NCBI GenBank assembly: GCA_949291515.1
Contig: CASEVY010000003.1
Location: 1-41,222, forward strand
Direction of reading: 5' to 3'
DNA from: an uncultured bacterium
GTDB lineage: Bacteria > Elusimicrobiota > Elusimicrobia > Elusimicrobiales > Elusimicrobiaceae
DNA: 41,222 bases
Below, piece after piece: positions 1,308 to 25,333 of the stretch; positions within the stretch are counted from its first letter, which is position 1, and the number at the start of each line of letters is the position of its first letter. Below the pieces are notes generated by a model. It was not told where the DNA came from and did not search any database. It worked only from the letters and a program-made list of their open reading frames with translations. The translations under genes and the position numbers were made by a program.

Positions 1308-1838
1308 TTTTCAAATATTTGTTTAATTGGTAATTGAGTTTTCACATTAACTATAATATTTACAGATTTTTGATGTTGCCTGCGTTTTGATATTTTTTAT
1401 TTTTTAACGATATTTAGAATTATGATGTAAGATAAAAAATTTGGGGTAATATTAATGTTTTCTGAAATTCCTGGATTTGGGGGCGGCTGATATATTTAAG
1501 GCAATTAGAAGGGGATTTTTTTCGAGTGGAAAGGGGCTGGCGGAGGGGAGGCTTTGTAATTTATATTCTCCTTTTGGGTTTCTAATGCAATATGGTTTCG
1601 GATAATGGATTATACGATATTAAAGGAGGGTTAATTGGGGGAAATATTGTATTTGGATAATATAAAGGCGTTAATATTGCGGGAAGGAGGAATTTTTAGT
1701 GCATTTTTGGAAAAAATATATATATTAATATCACTTAAAAAGGGCTTTTTTATTTGATACAATTCTTCTAGCCTGTTTTTCCGTTCGTTTTAGGCTAATA
1801 TATTTGTATGGATTTATAATATTTTGAAGAGGGTTGTT

Positions 1839-2342: not shown

Positions 2343-2345
2343 GTT

Positions 2346-2834
2346 ATGCTGAGGAGTTTTGCCGCCGTTACCGACGATAATACCGAGATATTGACGGTGG
2401 GTACCATGCCCGGCGCGGCCAGTTTGGCGGCGGGCGAGTATTATGCTTATAAGCGCAATCATTTTTGGCCGATAATATTTGCGTTGTTTAACGGCGGCGA
2501 ACCATTAAATTCGTACGAGCAAAAGATTTCTCTTCTTTTATCGCATAAAATAGGGCTTTGGGACAGTCTTCAATATTGTGACAGGCAAGGCAGCCTGGAT
2601 AAGGATATTCGTCGCGAAAGCCCGAATAATTTTAAAGTTTTATTTAAGCGCCGCCCCAAGATAAGAAGGGTGGTGTTTAACGGCCTTGCGGCGCGCAGAT
2701 ACTTCCTTAAGTATAATGATATTTCCGACGGACTGGAATATGTTTTAATGCCTTCGACAAGCCCGGCCAACGCCTCGAAGTCTTTTGAAGAAAAACTTGC
2801 TTTGTGGCGTAGCGTCTTAAAGCCAGGCAGGTAG
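2346..2834 (+). CDS. Uracil-DNA glycosylase superfamily protein, hypoxanthine-DNA glycosylase type
   Basis: 162 residues. An N-terminal VGTMPGAASLAAGEYYAYKR block and HFWPI match the first motif of the hypoxanthine-DNA glycosylase (family 6 UDG) group. The C-terminal LMPSTSPANAS matches the motif that inserts into DNA. Family members excise deaminated adenine (hypoxanthine) or related bases to start base-excision repair. The central LWDSLQYCDRQGSLD segment is also typical. It is translationally coupled to the macro-domain gene (three-base gap). Substrate preference between hypoxanthine and uracil is inferred from the motif pattern only. Confidence 0.85.
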   Translation: MLRSFAAVTDDNTEILTVGTMPGAASLAAGEYYAYKRNHFWPIIFALFNGGEPLNSYEQKISLLLSHKIGLWDSLQYCDRQGSLDKDIRRESPNNFKVLFKRRPKIRRVVFNGLAARRYFLKYNDISDGLEYVLMPSTSPANASKSFEEKLALWRSVLKPGR

Positions 2835-2969
2835 AATTTGTATGGCAGTGTTATATTTAGGACTTGAGCTATATCCCCTAGCCAACAGACAATGAAGTAA
2901 TTTTATTGTGCTTTTGTGGAAATTTTACCGGCGTTTGCATTCTCGTTTTTTATTATGTACTGAATAAAA

Positions 2970-2995
2970 AACCCCGACTTAAAAAAGTCGGGGTT
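2970..2995 (-). terminator. Intrinsic terminator, bidirectional
   Basis: AACCCCGACTT pairs perfectly with AAGTCGGGGTT around AAAA. Read on the minus strand it is followed by TTTTTATTC, a good T-tract for the lipoprotein gene at 3013-3996. On the plus strand the T-tract is short, so it may also serve the glycosylase gene. Confidence 0.85.
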
Positions 2996-3012
2996 TCGTA
3001 GTAAAAACATAA

Positions 3013-3996
3013 CTAATTCATATATTCGCCGTTTACGATGCTTATCGCGGCGGTGTCTATCGGCGTTACCGTCTTCTCGTCCAAATTGACTTCATAGGAA
3101 CCGCAAGAAATCGGGAACTCTTTCATCGTTGAAGGGGTCTTCCCCAATTTGCCGTTTACCTTGCAGGTCACTTTATAGATCGGCGTTCCGATTTTTACTG
3201 TAGTCCAATCTCTGTCGTTTGACATAAGTACAAGGCCCTGCGCTCTTTTTGCTTTGTCTATGGCGAGAATATATGCGTCTATTTCTTTATTGTAGAACCT
3301 CTTGAGGAGGAGAACCGCCTGTCGTCTTTCATAGGAAAGTTTCTTTTTCAACAGTTCCTGCCTTGCCGAATCGGACAGATCGTTATAATTTGTTTCCTCT
3401 TCGTCGTCCGTTTTTATGTCGGTGTATATTTCGGGTGTGGTATCGGGTTTCTTTTCCGGGGCAAAGAGATAAGTGCCTTGTTTTGTATCAGAATCTCTGT
3501 ATAATTTGGCCGTTTGCGTACCGAAATCCAAATCGAGGAATTGATCCGGTTTGGTTACCTGATCATATTCCAGTTGTACGATTCCGTCGGATTTAATTAC
3601 ACCTTTTTGTTCGGCTTTTGCGTGTATAGTTTTAAGGAAAGGAGAATAACTTACATTGACGGTAAGTATTTCTGGCTCATATTTTTTTGCCGTACCGTTT
3701 TCTACCAAATCGTCGGCGAAACCAGCATTGAAGTCCATCTGTACGGATTTATTTTCGCTATACCAGCAGCAGCGTGTAATGCAAGCTCTGTCGGTATCAA
3801 TACGGTCTTCCGCTTCCGCGGGGTTAAAGCGCAAGTTTAATTTATAACAAACGTCGGCGGTGGAACCGTCCAAATCCGACTTGGAAGAAACAATGGAAAT
3901 CCATTGTTTTGTTGAACTGCCGTCCGTGGTACTCATTCCCACGCAGCCGCAAATAAGCAGCGGCATCATTAAGATAGTAGGTAAAAATTTTCTCAT
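3013..3996 (-). CDS. Large lipoprotein of unknown function
   Basis: 327 residues. A short basic start (MRK), a hydrophobic stretch and ICGC with Cys18 form a lipoprotein signal. The rest is hydrophilic, with several Cys in the first third (CYKL, CITRCCW) and an acidic Asp/Glu-rich middle around residues 180-205, before a Lys/Arg-rich helix. I recognise no domain. The gene is monocistronic, with its own terminator at 2970-2995. It has no Shine-Dalgarno; instead TATAAT lies exactly six bases before the ATG, suggesting a leaderless mRNA. It is divergent from another small lipoprotein gene. Confidence 0.8.
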   Translation of the reverse strand: MRKFLPTILMMPLLICGCVGMSTTDGSSTKQWISIVSSKSDLDGSTADVCYKLNLRFNPAEAEDRIDTDRACITRCCWYSENKSVQMDFNAGFADDLVENGTAKKYEPEILTVNVSYSPFLKTIHAKAEQKGVIKSDGIVQLEYDQVTKPDQFLDLDFGTQTAKLYRDSDTKQGTYLFAPEKKPDTTPEIYTDIKTDDEEETNYNDLSDSARQELLKKKLSYERRQAVLLLKRFYNKEIDAYILAIDKAKRAQGLVLMSNDRDWTTVKIGTPIYKVTCKVNGKLGKTPSTMKEFPISCGSYEVNLDEKTVTPIDTAAISIVNGEYMN

Positions 3997-4002
3997 ACTT
4001 TG

Positions 4003-4008
4003 ATTATA
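4003..4008 (-). promoter_or_regulatory. -10 box TATAAT six bases before the start codon (leaderless)
   Basis: Minus strand reads TATAAT-CAAAGT-ATG. Initiation seven bases after the box would fall on the A of the ATG. No good -35 hexamer is seen at 17 bases. One of five units in this window with identical geometry. Confidence 0.6.
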
Positions 4009-4129
4009 TCCTATTTTTAAGATAAATTATAAGATAATTCATAATAGCATTTTATTCAAGACTTTTTATAAATTATAATATAATATATACATATATTAAA
4101 GGATCGGACGCTGTTTTAAGGAGGGATAG

Positions 4130-4402
4130 ATGAAATATTTATTAATGGTTGCAATAGCTTTAACGGTTATGGGCGGATGCGCGTCTAGCTCCGCCAAAGG
4201 CGAAGAAGATGCAAAATACTCCAATAAAGTTTCGGCCGAGGATAAGACTCAAGGCAATGTGATTATCGACGAGGAATTTGATTTGTTGGTCGCGCCGGAG
4301 TATGATTACGAAACCGAAGTTCCTTACGCCGAGCAGATAAAAAATCAACCTGTTAAGAAGCAAGCCAAAAGCGCCAAGAAACCCGTGGCGGTAAAGAAGT
4401 AA
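4130..4402 (+). CDS. Small lipoprotein with Lys-rich tail
   Basis: 90 residues. MKYLLMVAIALTVMGGC ends in a clear lipobox with Cys17, followed by a Ser-rich linker and an acidic middle. The last 20 residues are Lys/Ala/Val-rich (AKSAKKPVAVKK). AAGGAGGG precedes the ATG. No domain is recognised. The polybasic tail could contact acidic surface polymers or LPS, but that is a guess. It lies four bases before nadA and is probably its promoter-proximal cistron; AT-rich TATAAT-like strings at 4074-4084 could be the shared promoter. Confidence 0.75.
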   Translation: MKYLLMVAIALTVMGGCASSSAKGEEDAKYSNKVSAEDKTQGNVIIDEEFDLLVAPEYDYETEVPYAEQIKNQPVKKQAKSAKKPVAVKK

Positions 4403-4406
4403 CAAA

Positions 4407-5453
4407 ATGCGGGAATCGACGTCTGCGCAAATAGAAGAGGAAGCGCAAAGGCTATACGGCTTATTGGGCAATGTTACCGACTTTAAAACCGGCTGTAAGT
4501 ATACTCTTGAACATTGTAGGGCGGCAGCTCCTCTGACTTTGGCCGCAAATAATCTTAAGAAAGAAAACGACGCCGTAATTTTGGCGCATTATTATTGTGC
4601 GCCGGAAATAGTTTACGGCGTCGCCGATTTTAAAGGCGATTCTTACGCCTTGGCGAAAAAAGCGGCGGAGTTTGACGGCAGGAATATAATATTTTGCGGG
4701 GTTTATTTTATGGCTCAAACGGCCAAGATAGTAAATCCAAACAAAAGGGTTTACCTCCCGCCGATATCTGCCGGCTGCTCTCTAGCCGACGGCATTGACG
4801 CGGAAACCGTATCGGAACTAAAAAATAAATATCCCGCCGCGGCTTTTGTATGTTATATAAACAGCACTGCGGAAGTTAAAGCTCTTTGCGACGTATGCGT
4901 TACGTCTTCAAATGTGTACGACATAACCGCGGCTTTGCCAAACAGGCAAATAGTTTTTATACCGGATTTGTTTATGGCGGACAATATCCGCGCCGAACTC
5001 AAAAAGCGCGGGGTGGATAAAGAGATCTTGTCGTTCGGGGCCACTTGCTGCGTTCACGATAAATATACGGTGCGGGACGTTGAGGAACTGCGCGCGGCTC
5101 ATCCACTGGTAAAAATAATAAGCCACCCGGAATGTCCTTTGGCGGTGTGCGAAATCAGCGATTATTGCGGCAGCACTTCGGGTATGTTGGACTATGTAAA
5201 GAAGTCCGACGCAAAGGAATTTGCGGTTCTGAGCGAAGACGGGATAGTAAATTCTTTGGAATTGGAAAACCCGTCAAAAAAATTTTATGCGGTCAGCAGG
5301 GCTTGCGCGCAAATGAAGCGCAATACTTTAAACAATATAGTTGGCGTTTTGAAGAATATTGACACTGCTCCGCAAGTTGAAGTGTCTTGCGATACGGCGC
5401 AAAAGGCCAGAAAATGCATAGACAATATGTTTAAAATGGCAGGTAAGAAATGA
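4407..5453 (+). CDS. nadA: Quinolinate synthase
   Basis: 348 residues, the usual length for the long NadA form. It condenses iminoaspartate with dihydroxyacetone phosphate to quinolinate using a [4Fe-4S] cluster in the cytoplasm. Visible signatures are LAHYYCAPEIVYGVADFKGDS near residue 55, SAGCSLAD, a middle CVTSSNVYDI, and HPECPLAVCEISDYCGSTSGM. The Cys of these three blocks are the expected cluster ligands. It overlaps nadC by an ATGA junction. The oxygen-sensitive cluster suits an anaerobe. No nadB (aspartate oxidase) or aspartate dehydrogenase is present nearby, so the iminoaspartate source must lie elsewhere. Confidence 0.96.
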   Translation: MRESTSAQIEEEAQRLYGLLGNVTDFKTGCKYTLEHCRAAAPLTLAANNLKKENDAVILAHYYCAPEIVYGVADFKGDSYALAKKAAEFDGRNIIFCGVYFMAQTAKIVNPNKRVYLPPISAGCSLADGIDAETVSELKNKYPAAAFVCYINSTAEVKALCDVCVTSSNVYDITAALPNRQIVFIPDLFMADNIRAELKKRGVDKEILSFGATCCVHDKYTVRDVEELRAAHPLVKIISHPECPLAVCEISDYCGSTSGMLDYVKKSDAKEFAVLSEDGIVNSLELENPSKKFYAVSRACAQMKRNTLNNIVGVLKNIDTAPQVEVSCDTAQKARKCIDNMFKMAGKK

Positions 5454-6280
5454 TAGATAAAATAATAGAGTTGGCTGTTGAAGAAGACTTTGGCTTGGGC
5501 GATATAACTACGGATAATATTTTCGGCCCGACGTACTTGATAAAAGCCGTTTTCGTAGCCAAAGACGATATGGTAGTCTGCGGCGGAGAAGTGGCTAAGG
5601 CGGTATTCGGCTATGTCGATTCTTCAATAAAATTCAAGATGTTGAGAAAAGAAGGCGAATATATAAAGAAAGATACCAAACTGGCGGAGGTAAGCGGTCC
5701 GGCGCTCGGCGTTTTAAAGGGGGAGCGTCCGGCACTTAACTTTATGCAGAGAATGAGCGGCATAGCGACGATGTCATTCGAGCTTAACAAAATAGCAAAG
5801 AAGTATAAAGTAATGTTGGTAGATACCAGGAAATCCTTGCCGGGTATGCGTAAATTCGACAAATACGCCGTAAGAGTAGGCGGAGCCAAAAATCACAGAA
5901 TGTCATTATCGGACAGCGTGATGATAAAGGATAATCATATAGCCGCGTGCGGCGGAATAGAAAAAGCCGTCAAACTGATAAAGAGCAAGATAGGACATAC
6001 GCCTAAAATAGAGGTGGAAACCACGAACTTGAAAGAGGTTAAGGAAGCGTTAAAGTCCGGCGCCGACATAATTATGCTGGACAATATGTCCATATCTGAT
6101 ATATTGAAAGCAAAAGCCTTGATAAACGGCAAAGCAATTATAGAGGTATCCGGCGGAGTAAACAGGAATAACCTGGAGGAATACTGCAAGACTGGCATAG
6201 ACGTAATATCAATGGGTGCGCTTACCCATTCCGTACCCGCGAAAGATATAAGTATGCTGGTATCGGAGATAAAGAGATAA
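5450..6280 (+). CDS. nadC: Nicotinate-nucleotide pyrophosphorylase (quinolinate phosphoribosyltransferase)
   Basis: 276 residues, full length. It converts quinolinate and PRPP to nicotinate mononucleotide with loss of CO2. The family block DTRKSLPGMRKFDKYAVRVGGAKNHR and MIKDNHI, plus the barrel strands IEVETTN and IMLDNMS, are all present. Start ATG overlaps the nadA stop, so the two are translationally coupled and catalyse consecutive steps. Confidence 0.97.
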   Translation: MIDKIIELAVEEDFGLGDITTDNIFGPTYLIKAVFVAKDDMVVCGGEVAKAVFGYVDSSIKFKMLRKEGEYIKKDTKLAEVSGPALGVLKGERPALNFMQRMSGIATMSFELNKIAKKYKVMLVDTRKSLPGMRKFDKYAVRVGGAKNHRMSLSDSVMIKDNHIAACGGIEKAVKLIKSKIGHTPKIEVETTNLKEVKEALKSGADIIMLDNMSISDILKAKALINGKAIIEVSGGVNRNNLEEYCKTGIDVISMGALTHSVPAKDISMLVSEIKR

Positions 6281-6291
6281 GGAGTTGAAAT

Positions 6292-7503
6292 ATGAAAGAT
6301 TTTTCACATTTGTTGGCGAAGGTAAACGGAAGAGCGACGGCATCAGTAATAAGGGAATTGCTAAAAATGACAAGCGTTCCCGGTATGATATCTTTTGCCG
6401 GGGGAATGCCGGCTCCGGATTTATTTCCCGCCGAAGAGATCGGCGAGATAGTAAAAGACGTGATAGTCAAAGAGCCAAACATCGCTTTACAGTACGGCTG
6501 TACGGAAGGTGAGGCGGGCTTTAAGGCCGAGCTTATCAAGCTGCTAAAAGCGGACGAAGATATAGAGGTTACGCCCGAGGAACTTATAGTGACGTCGGCC
6601 TCTCAGCAGGCTTTGGATATAGTTAGCAAAGCCTTCGTAGATCCGGGCGATGCGATAATAGTAGGCAAGCCGACGTATTTGGGCGCATTGCAGGCTTTTG
6701 AAACGTACGGCGCCGATATGATAGGCGTTGAGAGCGACGACTTCGGTATAACGGCGGAATCTTTGGAAGAGAAATTGGAATCTCTCAAGAAAGAAGGGCG
6801 CGTATGCAAGTTTATATATATCGTTCCCGATTTTCAAAATCCGACGGGTACGACCATTCCTACCGAACGGCGCGTAAAGATATTGGAACTTGCCAAGAAA
6901 TACGGCACGGTAATTTTGGAAGATTCTCCGTACAGGAAAATACGGTTTAAAGGCGAACATCAAAAGACTTTTTACGCTTTGGATAAAGGCGAGGGCAACG
7001 TAATAACGATGTTTACGTTTTCAAAGACTTTTGTTCCCGGTTTTAGATTGGGTTATATAATAGCCGATAAGGATATAATCAGGAAGTTCGCGATACTGAA
7101 GCAGGCAATGGATTTGTGCAGTTCGCCTGTATGCCAAGCGATAACGGCGGAATATTTAAGGCAGGGCAGGCTTGAAAATCACGTCAAGAAACTTGTTAAG
7201 GTTTACAGCGAAAAGCGCGAAGCAATGCTAAAGGCTTTGGAAAAATATATGCCGCAAGGCGTGACGTGGACTAAGCCGGAAGGCGGTCTGTTCCTGTGGG
7301 TGGTATTGCCGGAAAATATAGACGCGGAGAAGATGTTCATAACGGCGGTAAAGAACAATGTCGCGTATGTGATAGGTTCTGCATTTTATCCCGACAAGAG
7401 CGGGAAGAATACGCTTCGCTTGAACTTTTCTTATGCTTCTTTCGAACAGATAGAAGAAGGCATAAAGCGTTTGGGCAAGGCGATAAAGGAATACAAAGCC
7501 TAG
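6292..7503 (+). CDS. PLP-dependent aminotransferase, class I/II (2-aminoadipate transaminase/LysN-like)
   Basis: 403 residues. Fold-type I features: GGMPAPDLFP near residue 38, substrate-binding NPTG at 183-186, D211, and the Schiff-base Lys245 in FTFSKTFVPGFRLGY. The closest family pattern is the MocR-like/LysN group of standalone aminotransferases that use aromatic, branched-chain or 2-aminoadipate donors. AAGGAG lies ahead of the ATG, 11 bases after nadC, so it is probably the last gene of the NAD operon, ended by the terminator at 7527-7554. The true amino-donor is not deducible. Confidence 0.88.
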   Translation: MKDFSHLLAKVNGRATASVIRELLKMTSVPGMISFAGGMPAPDLFPAEEIGEIVKDVIVKEPNIALQYGCTEGEAGFKAELIKLLKADEDIEVTPEELIVTSASQQALDIVSKAFVDPGDAIIVGKPTYLGALQAFETYGADMIGVESDDFGITAESLEEKLESLKKEGRVCKFIYIVPDFQNPTGTTIPTERRVKILELAKKYGTVILEDSPYRKIRFKGEHQKTFYALDKGEGNVITMFTFSKTFVPGFRLGYIIADKDIIRKFAILKQAMDLCSSPVCQAITAEYLRQGRLENHVKKLVKVYSEKREAMLKALEKYMPQGVTWTKPEGGLFLWVVLPENIDAEKMFITAVKNNVAYVIGSAFYPDKSGKNTLRLNFSYASFEQIEEGIKRLGKAIKEYKA

Positions 7504-7526
7504 AACTTAAATCGGCTTTAAGACAA

Positions 7527-7554
7527 AATCCCCTCTAAATAGCGAGAGGGGATT
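7527..7554 (+). terminator. Intrinsic terminator of the nad operon
   Basis: AATCCCCTCT pairs with AGAGGGGATT around an 8-base loop, followed by ATTATTTG. Confidence 0.8.
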
Positions 7555-7636
7555 ATTATTTGTAACAATTGCTTTGTGAAGCTATAATTTTAATAGCGTG
7601 TTTGATCTGACATTTGAGTATAATTAGTTTGGCCAT

Positions 7637-7668
7637 AAATATCCCGCTTTTTAAAAAGCGGGATATTT
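7637..7668 (-). terminator. 32-base perfect palindrome, terminator of ald
   Basis: AAATATCCCGCTTTTT is followed directly by its reverse complement. It lies 31 bases beyond the ald stop and points to termination of the minus-strand transcript. It may also block read-through from the left. Confidence 0.75.
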
Positions 7669-7698
7669 ATTTCTGATCTATCCGATAAAACAATTTCG

Positions 7699-8820
7699 CT
7701 AAAGGTTCAAAGCCTTTAATGGCGGCATATATACTTTTTCCAAGCCGAAGGCTTGCGCCACGGGTTCATAAGTGATAAAACCGCCGTAAGTATTAAGGCC
7801 AGATAATAAGGCCTTATTTTCGATACAGGCCTTTTTTACGCCTTTGGCGGCCAGCTGCAGGCCGTAAGGCAAAGTGGCGTTGTTTAGCGCGAATGTGGAG
7901 GTTCTGGCATAAGCGCCCGGCATATTGGCCACGCAGTAATGGATAATATTGTCCACGGTATAGACGGGATCGGAATGGGTAGTCGGGCGGGACGTTTCGA
8001 AACAGCCTCCCTGATCTATTGCGACATCTACCATAACCGCGCCGCTCTGCATTGTTTTAAGGTCTTCTTTTTTTACGAGTTTAGGTGCTTTTGCGCCGGG
8101 TATGAGTACGGCGCCTATCACTATATCGGCTTTTTTGAGTTCGGTTTTTATTGTCAGCGGGTCGCTGTAAAGGCAGGTAACGTTCGGGGGGAGAATTTCA
8201 CTTAAAAATTCCAGCCGCGCCAAATTTAAATCGCATACCGTTACTTTCGCGCCCAAGCCAGCGGCCGTTTTAGCGGCATTGGCGCCGACCGTTCCGCCTC
8301 CCAATATCAGCACTTGCGCGGGAGCTACTCCCGTAACTCCGCAGGGCAGTATCCCGCGTCCCTGATAATGTTTGCTGAGATAATAGCTGCCCATTAAAGC
8401 CGACATTCTGCCCGCCACTTCGCTCATCGGTTTGAGTAAGGGGAGGGTATGGTTTTCCTCCACCGTTTCATAGGCTTCGCTTGTTATTTTTTTATTCAGA
8501 CATACGTCGAGCAGTTCTCTGTCTGCGGCGAAGTGGAAATAGGTAAAAATCAACTGTCCGTTTTTCATCAGGTCATATTCCTGTTTAAGAGGTTCTTTAA
8601 CTTTTACTATCATATCCGCTTGCGACCATACCTGCGCCGCAGTTTTAAGTACGGTGCAGCCTGCGGCTTCGTATTCGCTGTCGGGCAGAGCCGAACCCAA
8701 GCCAGCGCCGCTCTCTATAAATACGCTGTGCCCCGCTTGTATATAAGCGTGTGCGGCATTGGGGGTAAGACCTACTCTAAACTCATTGTTTTTGATTTCT
8801 TTCGGACAGCCTATTTTCAT
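7699..8820 (-). CDS. ald: Alanine dehydrogenase
   Basis: 373 residues, the usual length. It interconverts L-alanine and pyruvate plus ammonia with NAD(H). The N-terminal MKIGCPKEIKNNEFRVGLTP and HVSVFIESGAGLGS-type block, the ILGGGTVGANAAKTAAGLGA nucleotide-binding loop and VDVAIDQGGCFETSRPTTHSDP are diagnostic. AAGGAGC precedes the ATG. A promoter with TTGCAA and TATAAA (18-base spacing) lies upstream. In a fermenter it could run toward alanine and re-oxidise NADH; that direction is inference. Confidence 0.96.
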   Translation of the reverse strand: MKIGCPKEIKNNEFRVGLTPNAAHAYIQAGHSVFIESGAGLGSALPDSEYEAAGCTVLKTAAQVWSQADMIVKVKEPLKQEYDLMKNGQLIFTYFHFAADRELLDVCLNKKITSEAYETVEENHTLPLLKPMSEVAGRMSALMGSYYLSKHYQGRGILPCGVTGVAPAQVLILGGGTVGANAAKTAAGLGAKVTVCDLNLARLEFLSEILPPNVTCLYSDPLTIKTELKKADIVIGAVLIPGAKAPKLVKKEDLKTMQSGAVMVDVAIDQGGCFETSRPTTHSDPVYTVDNIIHYCVANMPGAYARTSTFALNNATLPYGLQLAAKGVKKACIENKALLSGLNTYGGFITYEPVAQAFGLEKVYMPPLKALNL

Positions 8821-8873
8821 TTTTCGCTCCTTTTGGATAATTCTTTTTTAAATTTGATATATTCTTAAATTCT

Positions 8874-8903
8874 TTTATATATTTTATCGGATTTAATTTG
8901 CAA
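8874..8903 (-). promoter_or_regulatory. Candidate ald promoter
   Basis: On the minus strand TTGCAA (8898-8903) and TATAAA (8874-8879) are 18 bases apart, about 50 bases before the ald ATG. The hexamers are moderate matches in AT-rich DNA. Confidence 0.4.
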
Positions 8904-8910
8904 GCCCGAA

Positions 8911-8939
8911 AAAAAGCCCCGCCGTAAGCGGGGCTTTTT
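8911..8939 (-). terminator. Intrinsic terminator of the lpxL-pyrG operon
   Basis: AAAAAGCCCCGC and GCGGGGCTTTTT pair perfectly around CGTAA, with T-runs on both sides, 14 bases beyond the pyrG stop. Confidence 0.9.
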
Positions 8940-8952
8940 TTCGTTTTAATAA

Positions 8953-10539
8953 TTATTTCTTCTTGTTCTTTAAAGCCGCTTTGACAATCCCGTCGAATAG
9001 CGGGTGCGGCTTAAGCGGGCGGCTGGCGAATTCCGGGTGGAATTGCACCGCTATAAAGAACGGGTGTTTGGAATACTCTACTATTTCCGGCAGAAGCTCC
9101 TTATGCCAAGCGCTCACTTTAAGGCCGCATTTTTCCAGCAGGGGAACGAATTGCGGATTGTATTCGTAGCGGTGGCGGTGTCTTTCTTCTATGGCGTCTT
9201 TCTTGTAGAGTTTATGAGCGAGAGTTCCCTTGCGTATTTTAGCGCCGTAATTGCCAAGACGCATTGTCCCGCCGAGTTTCTTTATTTTCTTTTGTTCTTC
9301 CATCATAGCTACTACGGGATTTTTGGTATCGGGATTAATTTCCGTGGAATCGGCGTCTTTCAGGCCGGCCAAGTTGCGTGCGGCCTCTATAACGGTGCAT
9401 TGCATACCGAGGCATATCCCGAGGAACGGGACTTTGTTCTCTCTGGCGTACTTTATTGCTTCTATTTTACCGGGTATTCCGCGTTTGCCGAAACCGCCCG
9501 GCACTATAATCGCGTCCATTCCTTTAAGCGCCGCCGGTATGGAGTCTTTTTGGGTGTTTACGTATTTTACTTTTACCGATACTTTATTTGACATTCCGGC
9601 CAAATATAAAGACTCCGCGACCGATTTATAAGCGTCTTTAAGCTCGGCATACTTGCCCGCTATGGCGACTGTTATTTGTTTTTTGGGGGAAGTGGCCTTT
9701 CGTACAAATTCAAACCATTTGCCGTCGTTTTTCTTTTTTGCTTTAAGGTTTAATCTCTTAATAACCAAATCCGTAAGGCCTTGTTTTTCCAGTTCTTCCG
9801 GTACGAGGTATATCGAAGGGGCGTCCATAACTTCTATTACTGCGGCGGGTTCTACGCTGCAGAAAAGCGAGAGTTTATTTTTCATCGAATCGGATATATG
9901 ATGTTCCGTTCGGCAGGCAAGGACGTCCGGCTCTATGCCTATTTCGCGCAGCTTGTTTACCGAATGTTGAGTTGGTTTTGTCTTAAGTTCGCCCGCGGAC
10001 GATATGTAAGGGACCAAAGTGGCGTGCAGCGTCATAACGTTTTCGCGGCCGCGTTCGACTCTGAACTGTCTTGCCGCTTCCAAGAATGGCAAGCCTTCGA
10101 TATCGCCGACGGTACCGCCGATTTCTATTATGGTAACGTCGAAATCCTTGTCAAAGGCGGCAAAACGTTTCTTTATCTCGTTTGTTATGTGCGGGATTAC
10201 TTGCACCGTTACGCCGTTATAATCGCCTCGTCGTTCATTGTCGATGACCGTTTGATATATTCCGCCTGCGGTATTGGTATTGGCTTTAGTCATTGGAACG
10301 TCCAAGAATCTTTCGTAGGTGCCGAGGTCCAAATCAGCCTCCGCGCCGTCGGCCGTTACGAAAACCTCGCCGTGCTGATAGGGGCTTAAGGTGCCTGGGT
10401 CTATATTGATGTAAGGATCGCACTTTATCATATTGACCTTAAAGCCGCGCAGCTGCAAAAGTTTCGCCAGACTCGCGCCCGTTATCCCCTTGCCGAGCGA
10501 GCTTACCACTCCGCCCGTAACAAATATAAATTTCGACAT
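8953..10539 (-). CDS. pyrG: CTP synthase
   Basis: 528 residues, full length. It aminates UTP to CTP using glutamine and ATP. The N-terminal synthetase domain starts [23 protein letters not shown] with the P-loop. The C-terminal class-I glutaminase domain has [10 protein letters not shown] with the nucleophile Cys and a terminal HPEF. AAAGGAGC precedes the ATG, 13 bases after kdsB. It is the last gene of the envelope operon. CTP is the co-substrate of KdsB, so the pairing is metabolically sensible and common in Gram-negatives. Confidence 0.98.
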
Positions 10540-10552
10540 TTAATTTGCTCCT

Positions 10553-11299
10553 TTACTGTTCTTTAGAAATTTTTACAAATTCTTTCGCCCGTTCCAAATC
10601 CGCCGGCGTATCTATGGCGGGGCCCGTTTTTACCGTCAATACCGATTTTATAATCATTCCCGCTTCAAGCGCGCGCAGCTGTTCCAGTTTCTCCAGCTGT
10701 TCCAGCGGGCTGGGCGGCAGTTTGACAAAACGCTCCAGCGCCGCTCTTTTATAGCCGTATATCCCGCAATGAATATAATATGGCGCTTTTTCGCTCTGCG
10801 GAGTTTTTTCCCTTTTGTAAGGCACTATCGAGCGGGAAAAATATAAAGCCCGCCCGTCTTCGGCCAGCACCGCTTTTACGTGGTTGGGATTGTCGACCTG
10901 CCCAAAATCCGTGGTAGGTATACAAGCCGTTGAAATATCGGTCTCAGCGTCTTTTTTCAGAAGTTCGGCTGCGGCTCTTACGGTTTTTGGCAGGACGAAA
11001 GGTTCGTCGCCCTGTACGTTGATTATATAATCTGCTTGCAAACCTTTAGCCGCTTGGTAAATTCTGTCTGTTCCGCTGGGACAGTCCGAAGGCGTCATTA
11101 CGGCCTTGGCGCCAAAATTCTGCGCCGCTTTCGCTATACGCTCGTCGTCCGTAGCGATAATTACTTCCCCGCAGTCGGCCTTTTTGCAGGCTTCGTATAC
11201 CCATTGTATTATAGGTTTGCCGTAAAGGTCGGCCAAAGGTTTGCCGGGAAACCTGGTGGAGCCGTATCGCGCGGGTATTATTATTAAAGTGTCGCTCAT
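10553..11299 (-). CDS. kdsB: CMP-Kdo synthetase (3-deoxy-manno-octulosonate cytidylyltransferase)
   Basis: 248 residues. IIPARYGSTRFPGKPLADLYGKPIIQWVYE is the cytidylyltransferase start. VVMTPSDCPSGTDRIYQAA and INVQGDEPF (metal/nucleotide binding) follow, with the late HCGIYGYKRAALERFV. It activates Kdo with CTP for inner-core LPS. The start overlaps the upstream kinase stop (ATGA). kdsA and the Kdo transferase are not in the window. Confidence 0.96.
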   Translation of the reverse strand: MSDTLIIIPARYGSTRFPGKPLADLYGKPIIQWVYEACKKADCGEVIIATDDERIAKAAQNFGAKAVMTPSDCPSGTDRIYQAAKGLQADYIINVQGDEPFVLPKTVRAAAELLKKDAETDISTACIPTTDFGQVDNPNHVKAVLAEDGRALYFSRSIVPYKREKTPQSEKAPYYIHCGIYGYKRAALERFVKLPPSPLEQLEKLEQLRALEAGMIIKSVLTVKTGPAIDTPADLERAKEFVKISKEQ

Positions 11300-12285
11300 A
11301 AAACCTCTTTGATTTCCTCTACCGACGCGGTCGCCGTACCGAGTTTCGCCACCACTATGCCCGCCGCCTTGTTGGATATATAAGCCGCATCGGGCAGAGT
11401 AGCGCCGCAGGCCAAAGCCAAAGTGAGTACCGATATTACCGTATCGCCCGCGCCCGTTACGTCGAATACTTCTTTGGCGGTAGCTTTTATGGTTGTAACT
11501 TTGGGTCTGGCGCCTTTTTCAAACAAGGTCATACCTTCCGCGCTTCTGGTTATAAGAATCGATTCCGCGTCTAAAGTCTTTAGTATTTTCTTGCCGAGAT
11601 TGATTATGGCGCTATTGTCTTTTTTAGGAGGCAGGCCCATTCCTTCCCACGCCTCTTTTGTATTTGGCGTCATACAGGTAATGCGTTTGTATTTGAGGAA
11701 GTTGTCTATCTTTGGGTCCACGCAGACGGGAATATTTTTGGCTCTGCATATATTTATTATTTCTTCTATGTTATGGTCGGAAAGCATACCCTTCCCATAG
11801 TCCGACATTACGACGCCTTTGGCGGTTTTTACAGCTTTCTTAAAATTCTTCATACATTCTTTGGCGATAGGCGGGCAGATGCGTTCTTTGCTTTCTCTGT
11901 CAACCCTTACCACCTGCTGGCGTTCGGCTATTATGCGTACTTTTTGGGTTGTGGGCCTGTTGTCGTCGGTTACCAAAGCGCTTACGTCTACGCCTTTATC
12001 TTTAAGGTAGTTCTTTAAAATGGAGCCTTTTAAATCTTTGCCTATAACCGATAAAATTTTGGGTTTGGCGCCGAGCACCGCCAAGTTTACCGCCACATTG
12101 CCCGCGCCGCCCGCGATGAAATCTTCCTCCTCAACGTGAACGACAGGCACCGGCGCTTCGGGCGATATCCTGCTGACGGACCCTTTTACGAACTGGTCCA
12201 ACATAATGTCGCCTATTACTATTATCTCTTTTCCTTTAAAGCTGTTTATAATATTGATGAAATGACTTCTCTCTTTGTTTTGCAT
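11296..12285 (-). CDS. D-glycero-beta-D-manno-heptose-7-phosphate kinase (single-domain, HldA/RfaE1 type)
   Basis: 329 residues, a PfkB-type kinase. VIGDIMLDQFVKGSVSRISPEAPVPVV is the characteristic RfaE start. GGAGNVAVNLAVLGA is followed by the late DVTGAGDTVISVLTLALACG with the catalytic Asp. It phosphorylates heptose-7-phosphate at O-1 in ADP-heptose synthesis. Only the kinase domain is present: the nucleotidyltransferase half found in fused HldE is absent, so a separate adenylyltransferase must be elsewhere. Nine-base gap from the DUF3108 gene, with AAGGAG in front of the ATG. Confidence 0.93.
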   Translation of the reverse strand: MQNKERSHFINIINSFKGKEIIVIGDIMLDQFVKGSVSRISPEAPVPVVHVEEEDFIAGGAGNVAVNLAVLGAKPKILSVIGKDLKGSILKNYLKDKGVDVSALVTDDNRPTTQKVRIIAERQQVVRVDRESKERICPPIAKECMKNFKKAVKTAKGVVMSDYGKGMLSDHNIEEIINICRAKNIPVCVDPKIDNFLKYKRITCMTPNTKEAWEGMGLPPKKDNSAIINLGKKILKTLDAESILITRSAEGMTLFEKGARPKVTTIKATAKEVFDVTGAGDTVISVLTLALACGATLPDAAYISNKAAGIVVAKLGTATASVEEIKEVL

Positions 12286-12294
12286 AAAAGCTCC

Positions 12295-13548
12295 TTACTT
12301 TGTTTCGCTTGGGTTTGACTTTTGCTCGGAGATGGAATATTCCGTCAGTTCCGCCGTTACGCTGCCTATGAACACTTCCACCGACATTTTTACCGGCAGT
12401 CTGCGTTCGTCGTCTGTAAGCCATACCTTCAGGCTTTTGCCTTTGGCGGTAAATATACCCTCGCCGCTAAATTGCGGCTCAACTACTATACAATTAAATT
12501 CGCCCGCTTTAACTTTAACTTTCTTCTTGCCCAAAACGGTAACTTTCAAAGGATATTGTTTCTGGCGGTTGACGATGTCAAAATAAATTTCGCCTTTTTC
12601 CGGCAACTCCTGCAATCTTACGTAGTACAGAGCGGAAAGCATATCCAAAACTTCCTCGCCTTCAAAAACCATTTTTTGGGTTTTTATGTTGCCTTCTCTG
12701 TCCTGTCTGTGATTGTTGTAAGTATTGTTCGCATAATTAAAAGTGAGCCATTCGTCGCGTGCGTATTTGCCTTCCCTTACGCTTTGCCAATAGCCCAGAG
12801 ATTTTTTTGCGCCAATGTCCAGCCAGGATATATTTATGTCCCTTACTTTAAACAATGCGTCTATTATGCTGTGGGAGCTGGCGTCGGCCCTGAGTTCATA
12901 GGCCAAAGTGCCGTTGCTATCCACTATTCTGGTCGTTTGGAGCTGCGCCACTCCCGCCACGATAAAAGACCAGCCGATATTGTATTTTAAAGTCTCGCCG
13001 AACCATATGGGTTTTTTTAAGGATTTAGTTTGTTCGTCTGCCGCGTCCTGCGCGAAGTAGAAGGGGGAAGTCAAACGGCCTTCTTCCGTTTTTAATATTA
13101 CGGCTTCAGGGTCGTCATAGGCGTTCATCTCGGGAAATTGTGTTTGGTTTCCCTCGGAAGGAGTTTCGGCGTTTTTATCCGTATTTTCGGGTTTAGACTG
13201 CGATGCGTTCTCTTTGGATTGTTGTTCGGAGGCGGTTTTATTCGTTTCTTTTTGTTCGGCTTTTTGCTCAGAATCGGATTGTTCTTTCTTCATTTTCTCT
13301 TTTTGCGAGGGCGAAGGCGACGGCGAGAAGAATTTTATAAGAGATTGGGTAAAAGTCTGAGGTTCTTCCTCCGTTTCCTTTACAGCGGGGGGCTCTTGCG
13401 CTGGCTCTTGTTTTTCTTCCGGAACCTGCTCGGCGGCGGGTTGTTGCGCCGCGGGGCTCTGCTCTTGGGCCGGGGCTTTGCTGTTCTTTGTCGCGCAGGC
13501 CGGCAGCAACAGCACCGAAGATAGTATAAGTATTGTTAAAAATCTCAT
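12295..13548 (-). CDS. DUF3108 lipoprotein with Gln/Glu/Pro/Ser-rich linker
   Basis: 417 residues. Cys18 in LLLPAC forms a lipobox. Residues about 20-150 are low complexity, rich in Gln, Glu, Pro, Ser and Lys, and would make a long flexible tether. The C-terminal part (about 180-410) has the DUF3108 pattern: FGETLKYNIGWSFIVAGVAQLQ, a middle DINISWLD, and a late KVTVLGKKKVKVKAGEFNCIVVEPQ and KVWLTDDERRLPVKM. DUF3108 proteins are periplasmic or outer-membrane-associated with no firmly known activity. Its place between LPS-core genes, overlapping gmhB by four bases, suggests an envelope role. Confidence 0.88.
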   Translation of the reverse strand: MRFLTILILSSVLLLPACATKNSKAPAQEQSPAAQQPAAEQVPEEKQEPAQEPPAVKETEEEPQTFTQSLIKFFSPSPSPSQKEKMKKEQSDSEQKAEQKETNKTASEQQSKENASQSKPENTDKNAETPSEGNQTQFPEMNAYDDPEAVILKTEEGRLTSPFYFAQDAADEQTKSLKKPIWFGETLKYNIGWSFIVAGVAQLQTTRIVDSNGTLAYELRADASSHSIIDALFKVRDINISWLDIGAKKSLGYWQSVREGKYARDEWLTFNYANNTYNNHRQDREGNIKTQKMVFEGEEVLDMLSALYYVRLQELPEKGEIYFDIVNRQKQYPLKVTVLGKKKVKVKAGEFNCIVVEPQFSGEGIFTAKGKSLKVWLTDDERRLPVKMSVEVFIGSVTAELTEYSISEQKSNPSETK

Positions 13549-14096
13549 TTTGAAATCTCCTTAATATATTTTGCCGCCCCGTAAATATCCAAACATATTT
13601 TTACGTCTTTAAGTTGCGGAGCGTATTTTTGTTTTTGGCGTTTGCCGTTGGCCGTTAGCACCATAATGCCGCGCATTCCGATATTGGCGGCGAAATCCAT
13701 ATCCGATTTTTTGTCGCCTATCATAAAGGAATTGGCGACGTCGATATTATGTTCTTTTATCAATTTAAGGCCAAGGCCCGGCGCCGGTTTTCGGCAGGAA
13801 CAATTTTCATTCGGTGCGTGCGGACAATAATATATACCGTCAATATCGGCGGCAGACTCAAGCAGTTGACACATTTTTTTGTTTACCGCGTCCACCTGTT
13901 GCGGTCCGAAGTAGCCTCTGCCTATGCCCGATTGGTTCGACACTATAAAAAGTTTATAACCCATCTCCTTAAAAAGTCGAAAAGCCTTTAAAGTGTTTTT
14001 ATATAGTTTTACGCTTTTTGGGTCGCACAGATAAGTGCCGGGTTTTTCCTTTATTACCGTTCCGTCGCGATCCATTAAAATGGCTTTATTTTTCAT
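13545..14096 (-). CDS. gmhB: D-glycero-D-manno-heptose 1,7-bisphosphate 7-phosphatase
   Basis: 183 residues, a HAD-family histidinol-phosphatase-like enzyme. ILMDRDGTV gives D9 and D11 as nucleophile and acid/base. SNQSG is motif 2. CPHAPNENCSCRKPAPGL is the zinc-binding Cys cluster with the motif-3 Lys, and MIGDKKSDMDFAANIG is motif 4. It removes the 7-phosphate made upstream of the kinase step in ADP-heptose synthesis. It overlaps lpxL by 11 bases and the DUF3108 gene by four. Confidence 0.94.
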   Translation of the reverse strand: MKNKAILMDRDGTVIKEKPGTYLCDPKSVKLYKNTLKAFRLFKEMGYKLFIVSNQSGIGRGYFGPQQVDAVNKKMCQLLESAADIDGIYYCPHAPNENCSCRKPAPGLGLKLIKEHNIDVANSFMIGDKKSDMDFAANIGMRGIMVLTANGKRQKQKYAPQLKDVKICLDIYGAAKYIKEISK

Positions 14097-15048
14097 TGGC
14101 GCTGTCCTTATGTTGATTGATATTGTTTTCGTTTAATTCCGCCTGTTGTATTTTCATCGCTTCTATGCAGTCTTTTTCGCGTTTCCAGCGGTTATGGCCC
14201 CAAAGCCAGGTTTCTGGCGCCATTTTTATATAGTCTTCAAGTTTAGATTTGAGCAATACGGTATAATCGTAAACGGCTTTATGGGAATACTCGATTTGCG
14301 GCGGAAGAAAGGTATCTGTCCTTTCCACTATTATTTTTTTGCCGCGCCTGTATATTCTTATGGCATATACCGGCACTTGCGCTTTCAGCGAAAGCACCGC
14401 AGTGAGCGGAGCGACTTCAGCCGCCCTTCCCAAGAACGGCATATACAGTTTTGAAGCGTGTACGCTTTGATCGCTTAAAATCGATATTAAACCGCCTTTT
14501 TTAAGCGCTTTAAAACAGGAAAAGAAAGGATTGTATGCGCTTATGTAGCGCGCCCCGCGTATGGAGCGAAGGCGGTTTACTTCTTTGTCGACGTAAGGGT
14601 TAGTTTGGGGTTTGGCTATGAAGCATACGTTTTTGAAAAGAATGCTTACGATTAAGCCCGCTATTTCCCAATTTGTAAAATGTCCCAAATGCAATATGCA
14701 GCCTTTGCCGGCGGCATTTTGAGCGGCAACCTCTTCCATTCCTATCAGCTCCACTTTTGAAAGGACGTCCTCGTCCTTCATATAAGCCGCTTTAACAAAT
14801 TCCGCAGACAATCTCCCGATATTGCGCCAAGATTCCAAGGCTATATAGTCCACTTCCTTTTCGGATTTTTCCGGGAAGGCTTTTCTTATGTCTTCTTTTG
14901 TTCTTAAGTAGCGTTTACGGATTACGAGGGTAAGAGCGGAACCCAGCAATTCGCCGAATTTAAGGGCAAAACTCCACGGCATTAAGCGAATAGCGAAAAT
15001 CAATGCCTTAAGCCCGAGGTACTGGCAATAGAAGTTTAAATCCCGCAT
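14086..15048 (-). CDS. lpxL: Lipid A biosynthesis acyltransferase (LpxL/HtrB family)
   Basis: 320 residues. The acyltransferase HX4(D/E) motif is H123-FTNW-E128 in LHLGHFTNWEIAG. An N-terminal amphipathic/hydrophobic segment anchors it at the inner membrane, and DQSVHASKLYMPFLGRAA is the expected second motif. It adds a secondary acyl chain to lipid A. It is the first gene of the six-gene envelope operon. It has no Shine-Dalgarno, and TATAAT sits six bases before the ATG. Which of the LpxL/LpxM/LpxP activities it has is not clear. Confidence 0.92.
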   Translation of the reverse strand: MRDLNFYCQYLGLKALIFAIRLMPWSFALKFGELLGSALTLVIRKRYLRTKEDIRKAFPEKSEKEVDYIALESWRNIGRLSAEFVKAAYMKDEDVLSKVELIGMEEVAAQNAAGKGCILHLGHFTNWEIAGLIVSILFKNVCFIAKPQTNPYVDKEVNRLRSIRGARYISAYNPFFSCFKALKKGGLISILSDQSVHASKLYMPFLGRAAEVAPLTAVLSLKAQVPVYAIRIYRRGKKIIVERTDTFLPPQIEYSHKAVYDYTVLLKSKLEDYIKMAPETWLWGHNRWKREKDCIEAMKIQQAELNENNINQHKDSANEK

Positions 15049-15054
15049 ATTTAG

Positions 15055-15060
15055 ATTATA
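15055..15060 (-). promoter_or_regulatory. -10 box TATAAT six bases before lpxL (leaderless)
   Basis: Minus strand reads TATAAT-CTAAAT-ATG, the same geometry as four other units in the window. The -35 region is poor. Confidence 0.6.
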
Positions 15061-15181
15061 TCAAAAAGGGTTATCATTAGCGTTCATATTTAAAACGGCG
15101 CGCGTATTAAGAGTGGTTATTTATTGGCGGCGGCGAAAATAATATAATATAATGTCGGCACAATAATTGGGGAGTTTTTAT

Positions 15182-16273
15182 ATGGATTTCATAAAATTAA
15201 GGGAAAAGCTATTGAACAATACCGCAGGCCGCCTGTTGTTGGCTTTTGCGGCTTTTATTTACGGTTTGGGCGTAAAATTTGTATTGCTTGCCTATAAGAA
15301 AGGCTGGCGCGCGCAGAAAGCGGTAAACAGCAGAGTTGTATGCATAGGCAATATAACGGCTGGCGGAACCGGTAAGACGACGGCAGTCCTTTTGTGCGCC
15401 TCAAAGCTGAGCAAGGCCGGAATAAGGACGGCGGTTGTGTCGCGCGGATACAAAAGGAGCGCAAAAAAAGACGAAGTGGTGGTGCTCTTTGACAAAGATT
15501 TGCTTAATTGGCGCGAAAGCGGCGATGAACCTTATATGATGAGCCAGCTTCTGGCCGACGATAAAGTGCCGGTGGTGGTCAGCTCAGACAGATACGCCGC
15601 GGCCAGTCAGGCGGTAAAGGAATTTAGAAGCCAAGTGATACTGCTTGACGACGGTATGCAGCATCATCGTTTAAAAAGGGACGCCAATGTCGTTTTGATA
15701 GACGCGGTAAATCCATTCGGCGGGGAGGAGCTTCTGCCTTTGGGCACCTTGCGCGAGCCTATGACCGCTTTAAAAAGAGCTTCTTTGGTTGTTATAACGC
15801 ACAGCGATTTGGTACCCGCCCGCGAACGAGAGGATATAAAGGATACAATTCGTCTTATTAACGACGAGATAGAAATAATAGAAGCCGTACACAAGCCCGA
15901 TTATTATTTCGACGTGACGACAAAAACGAAAGTGGCTCTTAAAGATCTTAAAGGCGACGCCGTCGCGTTTTCCGCCATAGGGGATCATTCCAGCTTTGAG
16001 CAGACTTTGCGCAATTTGGGGCTAAACTTGAAGCAGACTTGGCGCTTCCCCGATCACGGTACTTACGATATGGAACAGATGGAAACTTTCGCCTCGTCGC
16101 GCGGCGATCTTCCTTTGATTACCACTTTTAAGGACTACGTAAAATTTCCGGAGGGCTGGCAGGACGTCATTAAAGACAAACTATATATTTTATCCATAAA
16201 TATGGAGATACTTAACGGCGAGGAAAACAAACTTTTGGAAGTGCTTTATCCGGGTATATCCAAGAAAAAGTAG
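15182..16273 (+). CDS. lpxK: Tetraacyldisaccharide 4'-kinase
   Basis: 363 residues from the ATG at 15182, preferred over a TTG at 15167 because GGGGAG (15169-15174) is then a well-placed Shine-Dalgarno. It phosphorylates the lipid A precursor at the 4' position. An N-terminal membrane-associated helix is followed by the Walker A CIGNITAGGTGKTT (about residues 54-67). The LpxK signature DDGMQHHRL and a C-terminal FPDHGTYDMEQ are present. It is divergent from the lpxL operon and monocistronic. AT-rich TATAAT strings at 15143-15153 are a possible -10 region. Confidence 0.96.
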   Translation: MDFIKLREKLLNNTAGRLLLAFAAFIYGLGVKFVLLAYKKGWRAQKAVNSRVVCIGNITAGGTGKTTAVLLCASKLSKAGIRTAVVSRGYKRSAKKDEVVVLFDKDLLNWRESGDEPYMMSQLLADDKVPVVVSSDRYAAASQAVKEFRSQVILLDDGMQHHRLKRDANVVLIDAVNPFGGEELLPLGTLREPMTALKRASLVVITHSDLVPAREREDIKDTIRLINDEIEIIEAVHKPDYYFDVTTKTKVALKDLKGDAVAFSAIGDHSSFEQTLRNLGLNLKQTWRFPDHGTYDMEQMETFASSRGDLPLITTFKDYVKFPEGWQDVIKDKLYILSINMEILNGEENKLLEVLYPGISKKK

Positions 16274-23686: not shown

Positions 23687-24883
23687 TCAGAAGAAAGTCA
23701 AAGAAGGCGCGGCGGCGTTTTGGATTTCCTTCTTATAGCTGTATATGGCGTAGCGCAAGGCGTCAAGGGCGTGGTCGTTGGATTTTAGCGGCTCTTCCAG
23801 AATATTGCCGTTAAGGTCGCTCTTCCAGCTGTAAGACTCTATTTCCCGAATAAGATTTACGGAACTTTTGGTTATCAGCAATTCGCCGCAGCTTTTCACC
23901 GCCATTATCCCGTTAAGAATGTTTTTGTCTGCCGCTTTTACGTTAAATCCAGCGCGGTATATGGCTTCTATGCGGGCGGGTTCGGCGGTGTCGGCGTATA
24001 TGGTTTGGGCGCGGTCTTCGGGCGGGATTATTTTCTTTAACTCCTCTATTAGAGCGTCGTTTGTCAGTCCGGCGCGGTATAGTTTTTCTTCCGCGCAGAA
24101 AGCGGCGTCTTTTATATATACTTTTACCAAAGCCGAAGGATTGTTAAATCCGAAATCCAATCCCCAAATAATTTCCTGCGGGTCGATGAAACTATCTTCA
24201 ACGCTGCGCCAGCGGGAATATATTGTTTTGTCGCTTCGCCCCCAGTTGCCCAAAGCATAGACCTCATAGGCGTTTTTGTCGTATTCTTTCAAAGAAAGAA
24301 GCGTATCTATATATTCCTTGGAAAGGAAAGGATTGTCCTTGTAGCTGCTTCGTATGACTTTTATCCCTTTGCGGTTTATCAGCTTTTTGGCTATCCAGCT
24401 GTTGGCGTCGGTAGGGTTGAGAGTAAGGAAAATTTGGTTTGTCATATCCGCCGCTTTGGGCGCGGAAAGGCGGGTGAGAAGTATAAGATAATCCTGATAG
24501 GTAAATTCGGTGGCTTCTTCCATCCAAATATAGTTGAACTCGGAAGATTTTATCTTCTCGGGGTCGTCGAGCGAAAAGAACTGTATTCTGCTGTTGCCGA
24601 GCAGATAAAAATTTTCCGTCTTATTCAATTTCCCGCTGTTGAAGAGTCCGTATTTTGCCAGCAGTTCCATTATCAGTCTGAAGGCCGTCATTTTAAGGGC
24701 GGGCATAGTCTTTCTGGTTATGGCGATAAGCGCGGTTTGGTTCAGCGCCCGCATTATCAGCAGCTGGGCTATGGCGTAGCTCTTGCCCGATCGCGCGCCG
24801 CCGATATTGATCACAGTCTGTTCGCGGGCGGAGAAACTTTCCCGGAATATTCTGCCCACTTTAAATCTGTTTGTCGCTTTCAT
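23687..24883 (-). CDS. Phage terminase large subunit (TerL, PBSX-like)
   Basis: 398 residues, full length for the family. The ATPase part has Walker A GGARSGKS (28-35) and Walker B FNYIWMEEAT with Glu122/123. The RuvC-like nuclease has WGLDFGFNNPSA with Asp243, IYADTAEP with Asp298, and SNDHALDALRYAI with Asp370/374. All catalytic positions are retained, so it looks functional rather than decayed. TerL packages DNA into phage or phage-like heads. It overlaps the small-subunit-like gene upstream by 23 bases. No portal, capsid, tail, lysis or integrase gene flanks it. Confidence 0.93.
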   Translation of the reverse strand: MKATNRFKVGRIFRESFSAREQTVINIGGARSGKSYAIAQLLIMRALNQTALIAITRKTMPALKMTAFRLIMELLAKYGLFNSGKLNKTENFYLLGNSRIQFFSLDDPEKIKSSEFNYIWMEEATEFTYQDYLILLTRLSAPKAADMTNQIFLTLNPTDANSWIAKKLINRKGIKVIRSSYKDNPFLSKEYIDTLLSLKEYDKNAYEVYALGNWGRSDKTIYSRWRSVEDSFIDPQEIIWGLDFGFNNPSALVKVYIKDAAFCAEEKLYRAGLTNDALIEELKKIIPPEDRAQTIYADTAEPARIEAIYRAGFNVKAADKNILNGIMAVKSCGELLITKSSVNLIREIESYSWKSDLNGNILEEPLKSNDHALDALRYAIYSYKKEIQNAAAPSLTFF

Positions 24884-25202
24884 ATATTATTTTGCTTGGT
24901 GTTTCGGGCCTTTTGGCGCTCTCTTTCGGCGATTTATTGTACTTCTTTGGCAGGCGGTTCGTCAGGGAAAAGCATAATATCCCCGCGGTTTTGGATTTTA
25001 AAGCCGCTTCTATAAGCGCGATTTCCAGTTTAAGATTTATGATTTTGTCAAAGGCTTTAAGAAAGGCCTTGTCTTGCGCCAAAGCCGAACAGAGCATATT
25101 TTTGGGGAAAGAGGAAAGCTCCAAAGCTTCGGTTATAGTGTCGGATTCCTGTAAGGTTTTTAGGAAGTTTTCTTTGAGGGTTTTGTCTGTATCTTTTTGC
25201 AT
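24861..25202 (-). CDS. Terminase small subunit-like protein (TerS)
   Basis: 113 residues from the ATG at 25202; a TTG 16 codons upstream is possible but unlikely. The layout fits small terminase or phage HTH proteins: a predicted helix-turn-helix near the N-terminus (ENFLKTLQESDTITEALELSS), a central KAFDKIINLKLEIALIEAAL helix, and ILCFSLTNRLPKKYNK, which mirrors the family's LLMFLLKARxPExYR. It would recognise the packaging site and partner TerL, whose start lies inside its 3' end. A TATAAT box lies at 25236-25241 on the minus strand. Confidence 0.75.
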   Translation of the reverse strand: MQKDTDKTLKENFLKTLQESDTITEALELSSFPKNMLCSALAQDKAFLKAFDKIINLKLEIALIEAALKSKTAGILCFSLTNRLPKKYNKSPKESAKRPETPSKIIYESDKQI

Positions 25203-25333
25203 ATTGCCGTCGTAGAAACAATCGTGACGGCTATAATTATATAATAGCAAATTATTACTTTTCCTTCAAATGGGCGCAAAGCGGGCCAGCGAAAAACAAA
25301 CTTTTTCGCGCGGGAGCGCGCTAAGATTTTTAT

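Follow-up and report, generated by a model that had tools for sequence, protein, structure and literature searches.

The window analysed here is a stretch of 41,222 nt, positions 1 to 41,222 of the forward strand of contig CASEVY010000003.1 (GenBank assembly GCA_949291515.1), from an uncultured bacterium of the family Elusimicrobiaceae, phylum Elusimicrobiota. It carries two overlapping genes, terL and terS, for the large and the putative small subunit of a phage-type terminase, preceded by a short leader and promoter:

23687..24883, minus strand: terL, large terminase (ATPase and RNase H-like nuclease) of the Terminase_3 / PBSX type, 398 aa, assigned by profile matches and orthologues.
24861..25202, minus strand: terS, putative small terminase, 113 aa, overlapping terL by 23 bp, assigned by position and family-wide conservation.
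25206..25231, minus strand: hairpin GCCGTC...GACGGC in the terS leader, abutting the start codon (3 nt 5' of the terS ATG), dG -10.5 kcal/mol, z -2.2.
25226-25232, minus strand: leader box AGCCGTC of terS, within the hairpin.
25241..25269, minus strand: putative terS-terL promoter, with -35 TTGAAG (25264-25269), a 17-bp spacer, -10 TATTAT (25241-25246) and TTTGC before the -10.

A preliminary description of this DNA had called the pair apparently intact and isolated, and had taken retention of its catalytic residues as a sign of selection. TerL matches Pfam Terminase_3 (2e-32) and Terminase_3C (6e-11), PHROG_2 (3e-55) and, exceeding the cut-off, NCBIfam TIGR01547 (PBSX-family TerL, 8e-44). The catalytic residues are indeed kept: an alignment of 19 orthologues shows no change in the Walker A region (GGARSxKS), in E122/E123 or in any of the three nuclease aspartates (D243, D298, D374), apart from Walker A residue G33, which is nearly invariant. 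The start of terS is placed at the ATG at 25202; a longer TTG start (25250) falls within the promoter. Its product has no Pfam, PHROG or NCBIfam match. The AlphaFold2 model predicts helices at residues 2-19, 23-30 and 34-43, resembling a helix-turn-helix (HTH) arrangement, then a long helix at 45-69, and its top PDB match is the small terminase of Sf6 (gp1), a weak one (probability 0.38). A terS orthologue adjoins terL throughout Elusimicrobiaceae, in agreement with the TerS-like gene described earlier.

The host-gene flanks were also read correctly: a major facilitator superfamily permease with a PfkB kinase lies on one side of the pair and GT2/GT9 glycosyltransferases on the other, and the closest relatives keep the same neighbours. 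That no other phage gene accompanies the pair holds for the window, where none was found beyond terS-terL, and fails for the genome (1.50 Mb, 13 contigs, one TerL). Targeted searches and inspected stretches of that genome, of the kind the preliminary description had called for, revealed intact and unlinked portal, capsid and tail genes. These lie on contigs labelled C2 and C11, with a lysis gene on C6:

C2:56110-57063: portal, single copy (PF04860, 4e-73).
C2, adjoining the portal: prohead protease (PF04586).
C11:22836-23705: HK97-type capsid, single copy (PF05065, 7e-53), with a predicted length of 408 aa before processing.
C11, downstream of the capsid: head-tail adaptor (PF05135/phrog_442).
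C11, downstream of the capsid: neck protein (phrog_5).
C11, downstream of the capsid: tail tube (phrog_2175).
C11, downstream of the capsid: tape measure, very short at 238 aa (phrog_24).
C6:10392-10646: M15_3 endolysin, a separate fourth locus, 42% identical to the copy in the capsid operon of the closed genome G018.

After the capsid gene, the C11 operon also codes for closure, terminator-like, chaperone-like, two distal-tail and two small membrane proteins; the names terminator, distal-tail, hub and holin-like are based chiefly on gene order. The best PDB matches of portal and capsid are proteins of the Rhodobacter capsulatus gene transfer agent (3e-31 and 1e-13). FtsK and ClpP flank the portal locus, FeoB and an iron hydrogenase the capsid locus. 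The three loci lie on three contigs, and no gene comes closer than 14 kb to a contig end. The M15_3 endolysin lies within the capsid operon in genera g2 and g4 and near the cluster end in g5; the family was not found in three genomes tested of genus g6.

In all likelihood, terS-terL provides the packaging part of a conserved and domesticated siphovirus-like gene transfer agent (GTA) candidate of Elusimicrobiaceae, a complete particle gene set dispersed over at least three unlinked operons. A split GTA locus was the first option of the preliminary description, and it is the one supported by the intact, unlinked structural genes and by the low ratios of nonsynonymous to synonymous substitution (dN/dS) given below.

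The 20 genomes that have an orthologue of TerL are exactly those that have one of portal and one of tape measure; 40 others, searched for all three, have none (Fisher 2e-16, uncorrected for phylogeny), and the capsid is likewise present in 20/20 set-carrying genomes. A lone domesticated motor, also proposed earlier, would not match the distribution of portal, capsid and tape measure perfectly. The 20 genomes represent five genera of Elusimicrobiaceae; public titles of host genomes describe Elusimicrobiaceae or Elusimicrobia metagenome-assembled genomes (MAGs), several from rumen. Among 341 genomes of the phylum, portal orthologues were found nowhere outside the 20, where only prophage-type portals (32-37%) were seen. 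No phage or viral contig proved close to the module, with TerL not exceeding 50% and portal not exceeding 41%, and the search for a phage ancestor among viral contigs was abandoned.

Dispersal is seen within single contigs as well. In G018 (closed, single 1,643,562-bp contig), which we take to be Elusimicrobium minutum Pei191, the distances between the three loci are 164, 239 and 407 kb; on a single 647-kb contig of G001 they range from 33 to 464 kb. The portal-protease locus adjoins terS-terL in G006, G007, G009, G013 and G020. In G019, and in G021 across two contigs, the whole set stands in one place in canonical phage order, an arrangement that we read as the ancestral state. The G021 cluster starts next to a host gene of the pilin-like kind; at its other end, an M15 lysin and a small gene about the size of a holin gene come before a DinG-like helicase gene. 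Host genes lie on both sides of this cluster, and neither integrase nor replication genes were seen in it. No integrase, repressor, replication or other mobility gene was seen beside the loci examined. On the GyrA tree, the absences need two losses, one in the large genus g6 and one in the subclade G008/G012/G015 (genome completeness 69-86%). In both, the entire set has been lost together, though its parts are unlinked.

Phylogenies of the three loci follow that of the host. Of 16 splits, the gyrA+rpoB tree has 11 in common with TerL, 12 with portal plus protease and 11 with the capsid-to-hub genes, against a random expectation of 0.2 on average and 4 at most, and the locus trees share 12-13 splits among themselves. 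Conflicts with the host tree concern mostly weak or deep branches, or fall inside one rumen clade. Purifying selection acts on all 16 genes, with dN/dS (Nei-Gojobori, three clades) of about 0.04-0.30, compared with 0.02-0.09 for ten host genes; capsid, portal and terminase belong to the most strongly constrained part of the set. With values of 0.06-0.13 for TerL and 0.06-0.10 for TerS, the link earlier drawn between catalytic retention and selection is upheld. The third-codon-position GC content of the 16 genes is host-like.

The loci are also similar upstream. A sigma-70-like promoter precedes each of terS, portal and capsid, and directly after it comes a GAGYCGYC box, which makes up the 5' side of a hairpin stem; in the portal and capsid leaders of most species, the hairpin is followed by a T-run. 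The terS-terL promoter pattern was recovered genome-wide by pattern search. In a leave-one-locus-out test, in which boxes were anchored by hand and which was not blind, the boxes of portal and capsid outscored every one, or nearly every one, of 216 background upstream regions in most species, including the distant E. minutum clade. The terS operon may belong to the same leader regulon, the operons may be co-regulated and the leaders may act by attenuation. By analogy with the Caulobacter GTA (PMC11150451), they could be attenuators opened by a GTA-specific antiterminator.

Several further observations concern these leaders. The lysin leader (L309 6284-6700, G000:C6:10284-10700) has GGAGAGCC 3' of its promoter; it was considered as a fourth box site and set aside, its position matching and its box not being statistically significant. 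A GCCCGCC element lies between leader hairpin and portal start codon in most species (L064 11244-11300 and the portal leaders of relatives); an alternative structure might arise if it paired with the hairpin's 3' arm. Upstream of the capsid (L065, TTTGATACATTTGTATCAG), a 14-bp perfect palindrome, GATACATTTGTATC (GATACA-TT-TGTATC), overlaps the -10 region of the promoter and is conserved across much of genus g1; it is a possible operator. Pattern searches for further box loci were not productive: the first returned the three known and three other loci of the genome itself, the second did no better than a reversed control, and an outside match in G017:C6 falls within a coding frame.

We propose that locus 1, in the window, would supply the packaging motor, locus 2 the portal and prohead protease, and locus 3 the capsid, adaptor, closure, neck, terminator, tube, chaperone, tape measure, distal tail/hub and two membrane proteins. 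A common signal or regulator would act on the promoter or leader of each operon, so that all parts are made together; the box and hairpin, with the T-run behind them in the portal and capsid leaders, would be attenuator-like. Heads would then assemble, TerS-TerL would load them with host DNA through the portal, short tails would attach, cells would lyse and the particles would deliver DNA to kin. Judged by their genes, these gut bacteria very probably make GTAs, particles by which fragments of a cell's own DNA would reach other cells.

GTAs are formally defined by six features (PMC9662315), three of which are found here. The particle proteins derive from tailed phages (Caudoviricetes), as Pfam, PHROGs and PDB matches of terminase, portal, protease, capsid, neck, tube and tape measure indicate. 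The set is fully endogenised in the host and, as is often so in GTAs, occupies multiple loci (three unlinked ones in the window's own genome, in G001 and in the closed relative). It is inherited mostly vertically and has co-diversified with the host. The remaining features are a genome that is not, or not fully, packaged (small head), encapsidation of mostly random host DNA, and its delivery to cells (PMC9662315). Co-packaging of the whole set would be very unlikely, because it is dispersed over more than 400 kb.

Among known systems, the RcGTA-like agents (Rhodogtaviriformidae) resemble the Elusimicrobiaceae set in their HK97-type portal and capsid, short tape measure, vertical inheritance, lack of replication genes and distribution over several loci. 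The main cluster of RcGTA (the R. capsulatus agent) holds terminase, capsid and tail genes, with accessory genes elsewhere. In g1 and g2, in contrast, the set is dispersed with no such main cluster, and even the terminase, portal-protease and capsid-tail operons are not linked to one another; TerL belongs to the PBSX/Terminase_3 type and the host phylum is Elusimicrobiota. Because of this TerL type and the unlinked core structural genes, we do not file the set under the RcGTA family. RcGTA itself occupies five loci (PMC9662315). The Caulobacter GTA (CcGTA) is controlled by GafYZ through activation and antitermination (PMC11150451). An early-transcript terminator that has to be passed would be an analogous logic, whereas here hairpin and T-run stand in the portal and capsid 5' leaders, with a related box before terS, and attenuation is a prediction. 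Brachyspira VSH-1/BhGTA, compared by description only, is likewise a gut-bacterial GTA, probably dispersed over several loci (PMC9662315), and belongs to another phylum.

Prophages of the PBSX and HK97 types (for example G007:C2, L047) share with the set their fold families and have a gene order similar to that within the ancestral cluster. The G007:C2 prophage differs by a fused 694-aa portal, a 670-aa tape measure, repressor and recombination genes, and a TerL about 41% identical. Prophages or prophage-like regions with distant TerL and fused portals of about 700 aa were noted in the same family at L047 (G007:C2:186500-206400), L101 (G029:C3), L301 (G017:C39) and L300 (G030:C9).

Several points weigh against a GTA. 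Particles, packaged host DNA and transfer are predictions from genes, most genomes are MAGs, and there is one single-contig relative. The TerS of known GTAs is reported to be without a DNA-binding domain (PMC11841831), whereas the model here keeps an N-terminal HTH-like helix bundle, with no domain match and weak PDB matches, that could bind DNA. In the leave-one-out test, the terS box is unremarkable in most species, its best match lying at the expected -33 to -36, and the lysin leader box is not significant. Folding z-scores against shuffles are modest (portal -1.1, capsid -1.5), and no regulator of the loci was found. A few well-supported branching rearrangements inside the rumen clade suggest recombination. 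The TerL of G021 does not group with the others in the tree; a single clade is not rejected (p-AU 0.41).

The short tails and lysis genes would also suit killing particles, and a domesticated particle with another job (antibacterial, signalling or DNA handling) has to be weighed; we consider it unlikely. Tailocins keep tail genes and are not known to keep terminase, portal and capsid. Here these three rank with the most strongly constrained genes, which favours DNA-filled heads.

Phage-derived genes, the absence of early genes and MAG assemblies of varied quality speak for a defective prophage, scattered by rearrangement and not yet lost. Such a remnant is nevertheless very improbable. Pseudogenes and relaxed selection, the marks of decay, were looked for across the orthologues and not found: single-copy reading frames are open in 20 genomes of five genera, at the dN/dS values given above. 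Co-descent with the host and joint loss despite unlinked loci speak against it as well. A full prophage at the same site in a relative, which the preliminary description regarded as contrary evidence, was not found; what relatives offer is the single-place clusters of two deep genera, host-flanked in G021.

Scarcely any room is left for an active phage family that reinfects these hosts and is split only in assemblies. True prophages with a related TerL (32-43%) do occur in the same hosts (G007, G017, G029, G030), but they are placed far off in the TerL tree, while the trees of the set match the host. The three loci lie mid-contig among host genes (FtsK, ClpP, FeoB, hydrogenase, PfkB, GT2), at the distances given for the closed genome, and not as one contiguous unit with integrase, repressor and replication genes. 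Some satellites typically carry a terminase gene without adjoining capsid genes, as is the case here, yet a PICI-like (phage-inducible chromosomal island) packaging module parasitising helper phages is next to inconceivable and, like the orphan motor, was dropped once unlinked portal, capsid and tail genes were found: it would be a compact mobile unit borrowing capsids, whereas this host carries its own matching set, neither integrase nor primase lies beside terS-terL, and the neighbours of the pair are kept in the closest relatives.

The sister genus g6, which is without the siphovirus-type GTA, has a podovirus-type set of TerL, connector, scaffold/protease, capsid, tubular tail proteins, internal virion protein and fibre:

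L298 (G022:C10:5001-22000), 2862-16208: podovirus-type set.
L297 (G024:C2), 1468-13244: podovirus-type set.
L363-L382: further podovirus-type sets.

Its capsid occurs in 33 g6 genomes (83-100% identity, single copy as a rule) and in 0/20 genomes with the first set. Insertion sites are shared by clades, two of them monophyletic with full support; TerL is displaced in some genomes, and some copies lie near an S24/HTH repressor. The set could represent either another GTA of independent origin or a prophage of great stability. Tentatively, and at slightly less than an even chance, the family may always have kept GTA particles: the siphovirus-derived GTA would have been lost in g6 and replaced by an independently domesticated podovirus-type one, giving two mutually exclusive, unrelated lineages, the older of them scattered and run by a leader-box/attenuator regulon.

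Elsewhere in the window, positions 501-1500, close to the contig start, have 21% GC, compared with 45% for the window.

Few lineages have been shown to possess GTAs, and how widely these really occur is hard to judge since scattered loci resemble prophage debris (PMC11841831). We found no earlier report of a GTA in Elusimicrobiota in the open-licence literature, and the present case would add a phylum to those with GTAs. Within one family, it would present an ancestral compact cluster together with its dispersed descendants, and the leader box would offer a sequence handle on the co-regulation of unlinked GTA operons. If the closed relative is E. minutum, a cultured species, the prediction is directly testable. 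The same reinterpretation could be applied to orphan terminase genes elsewhere.
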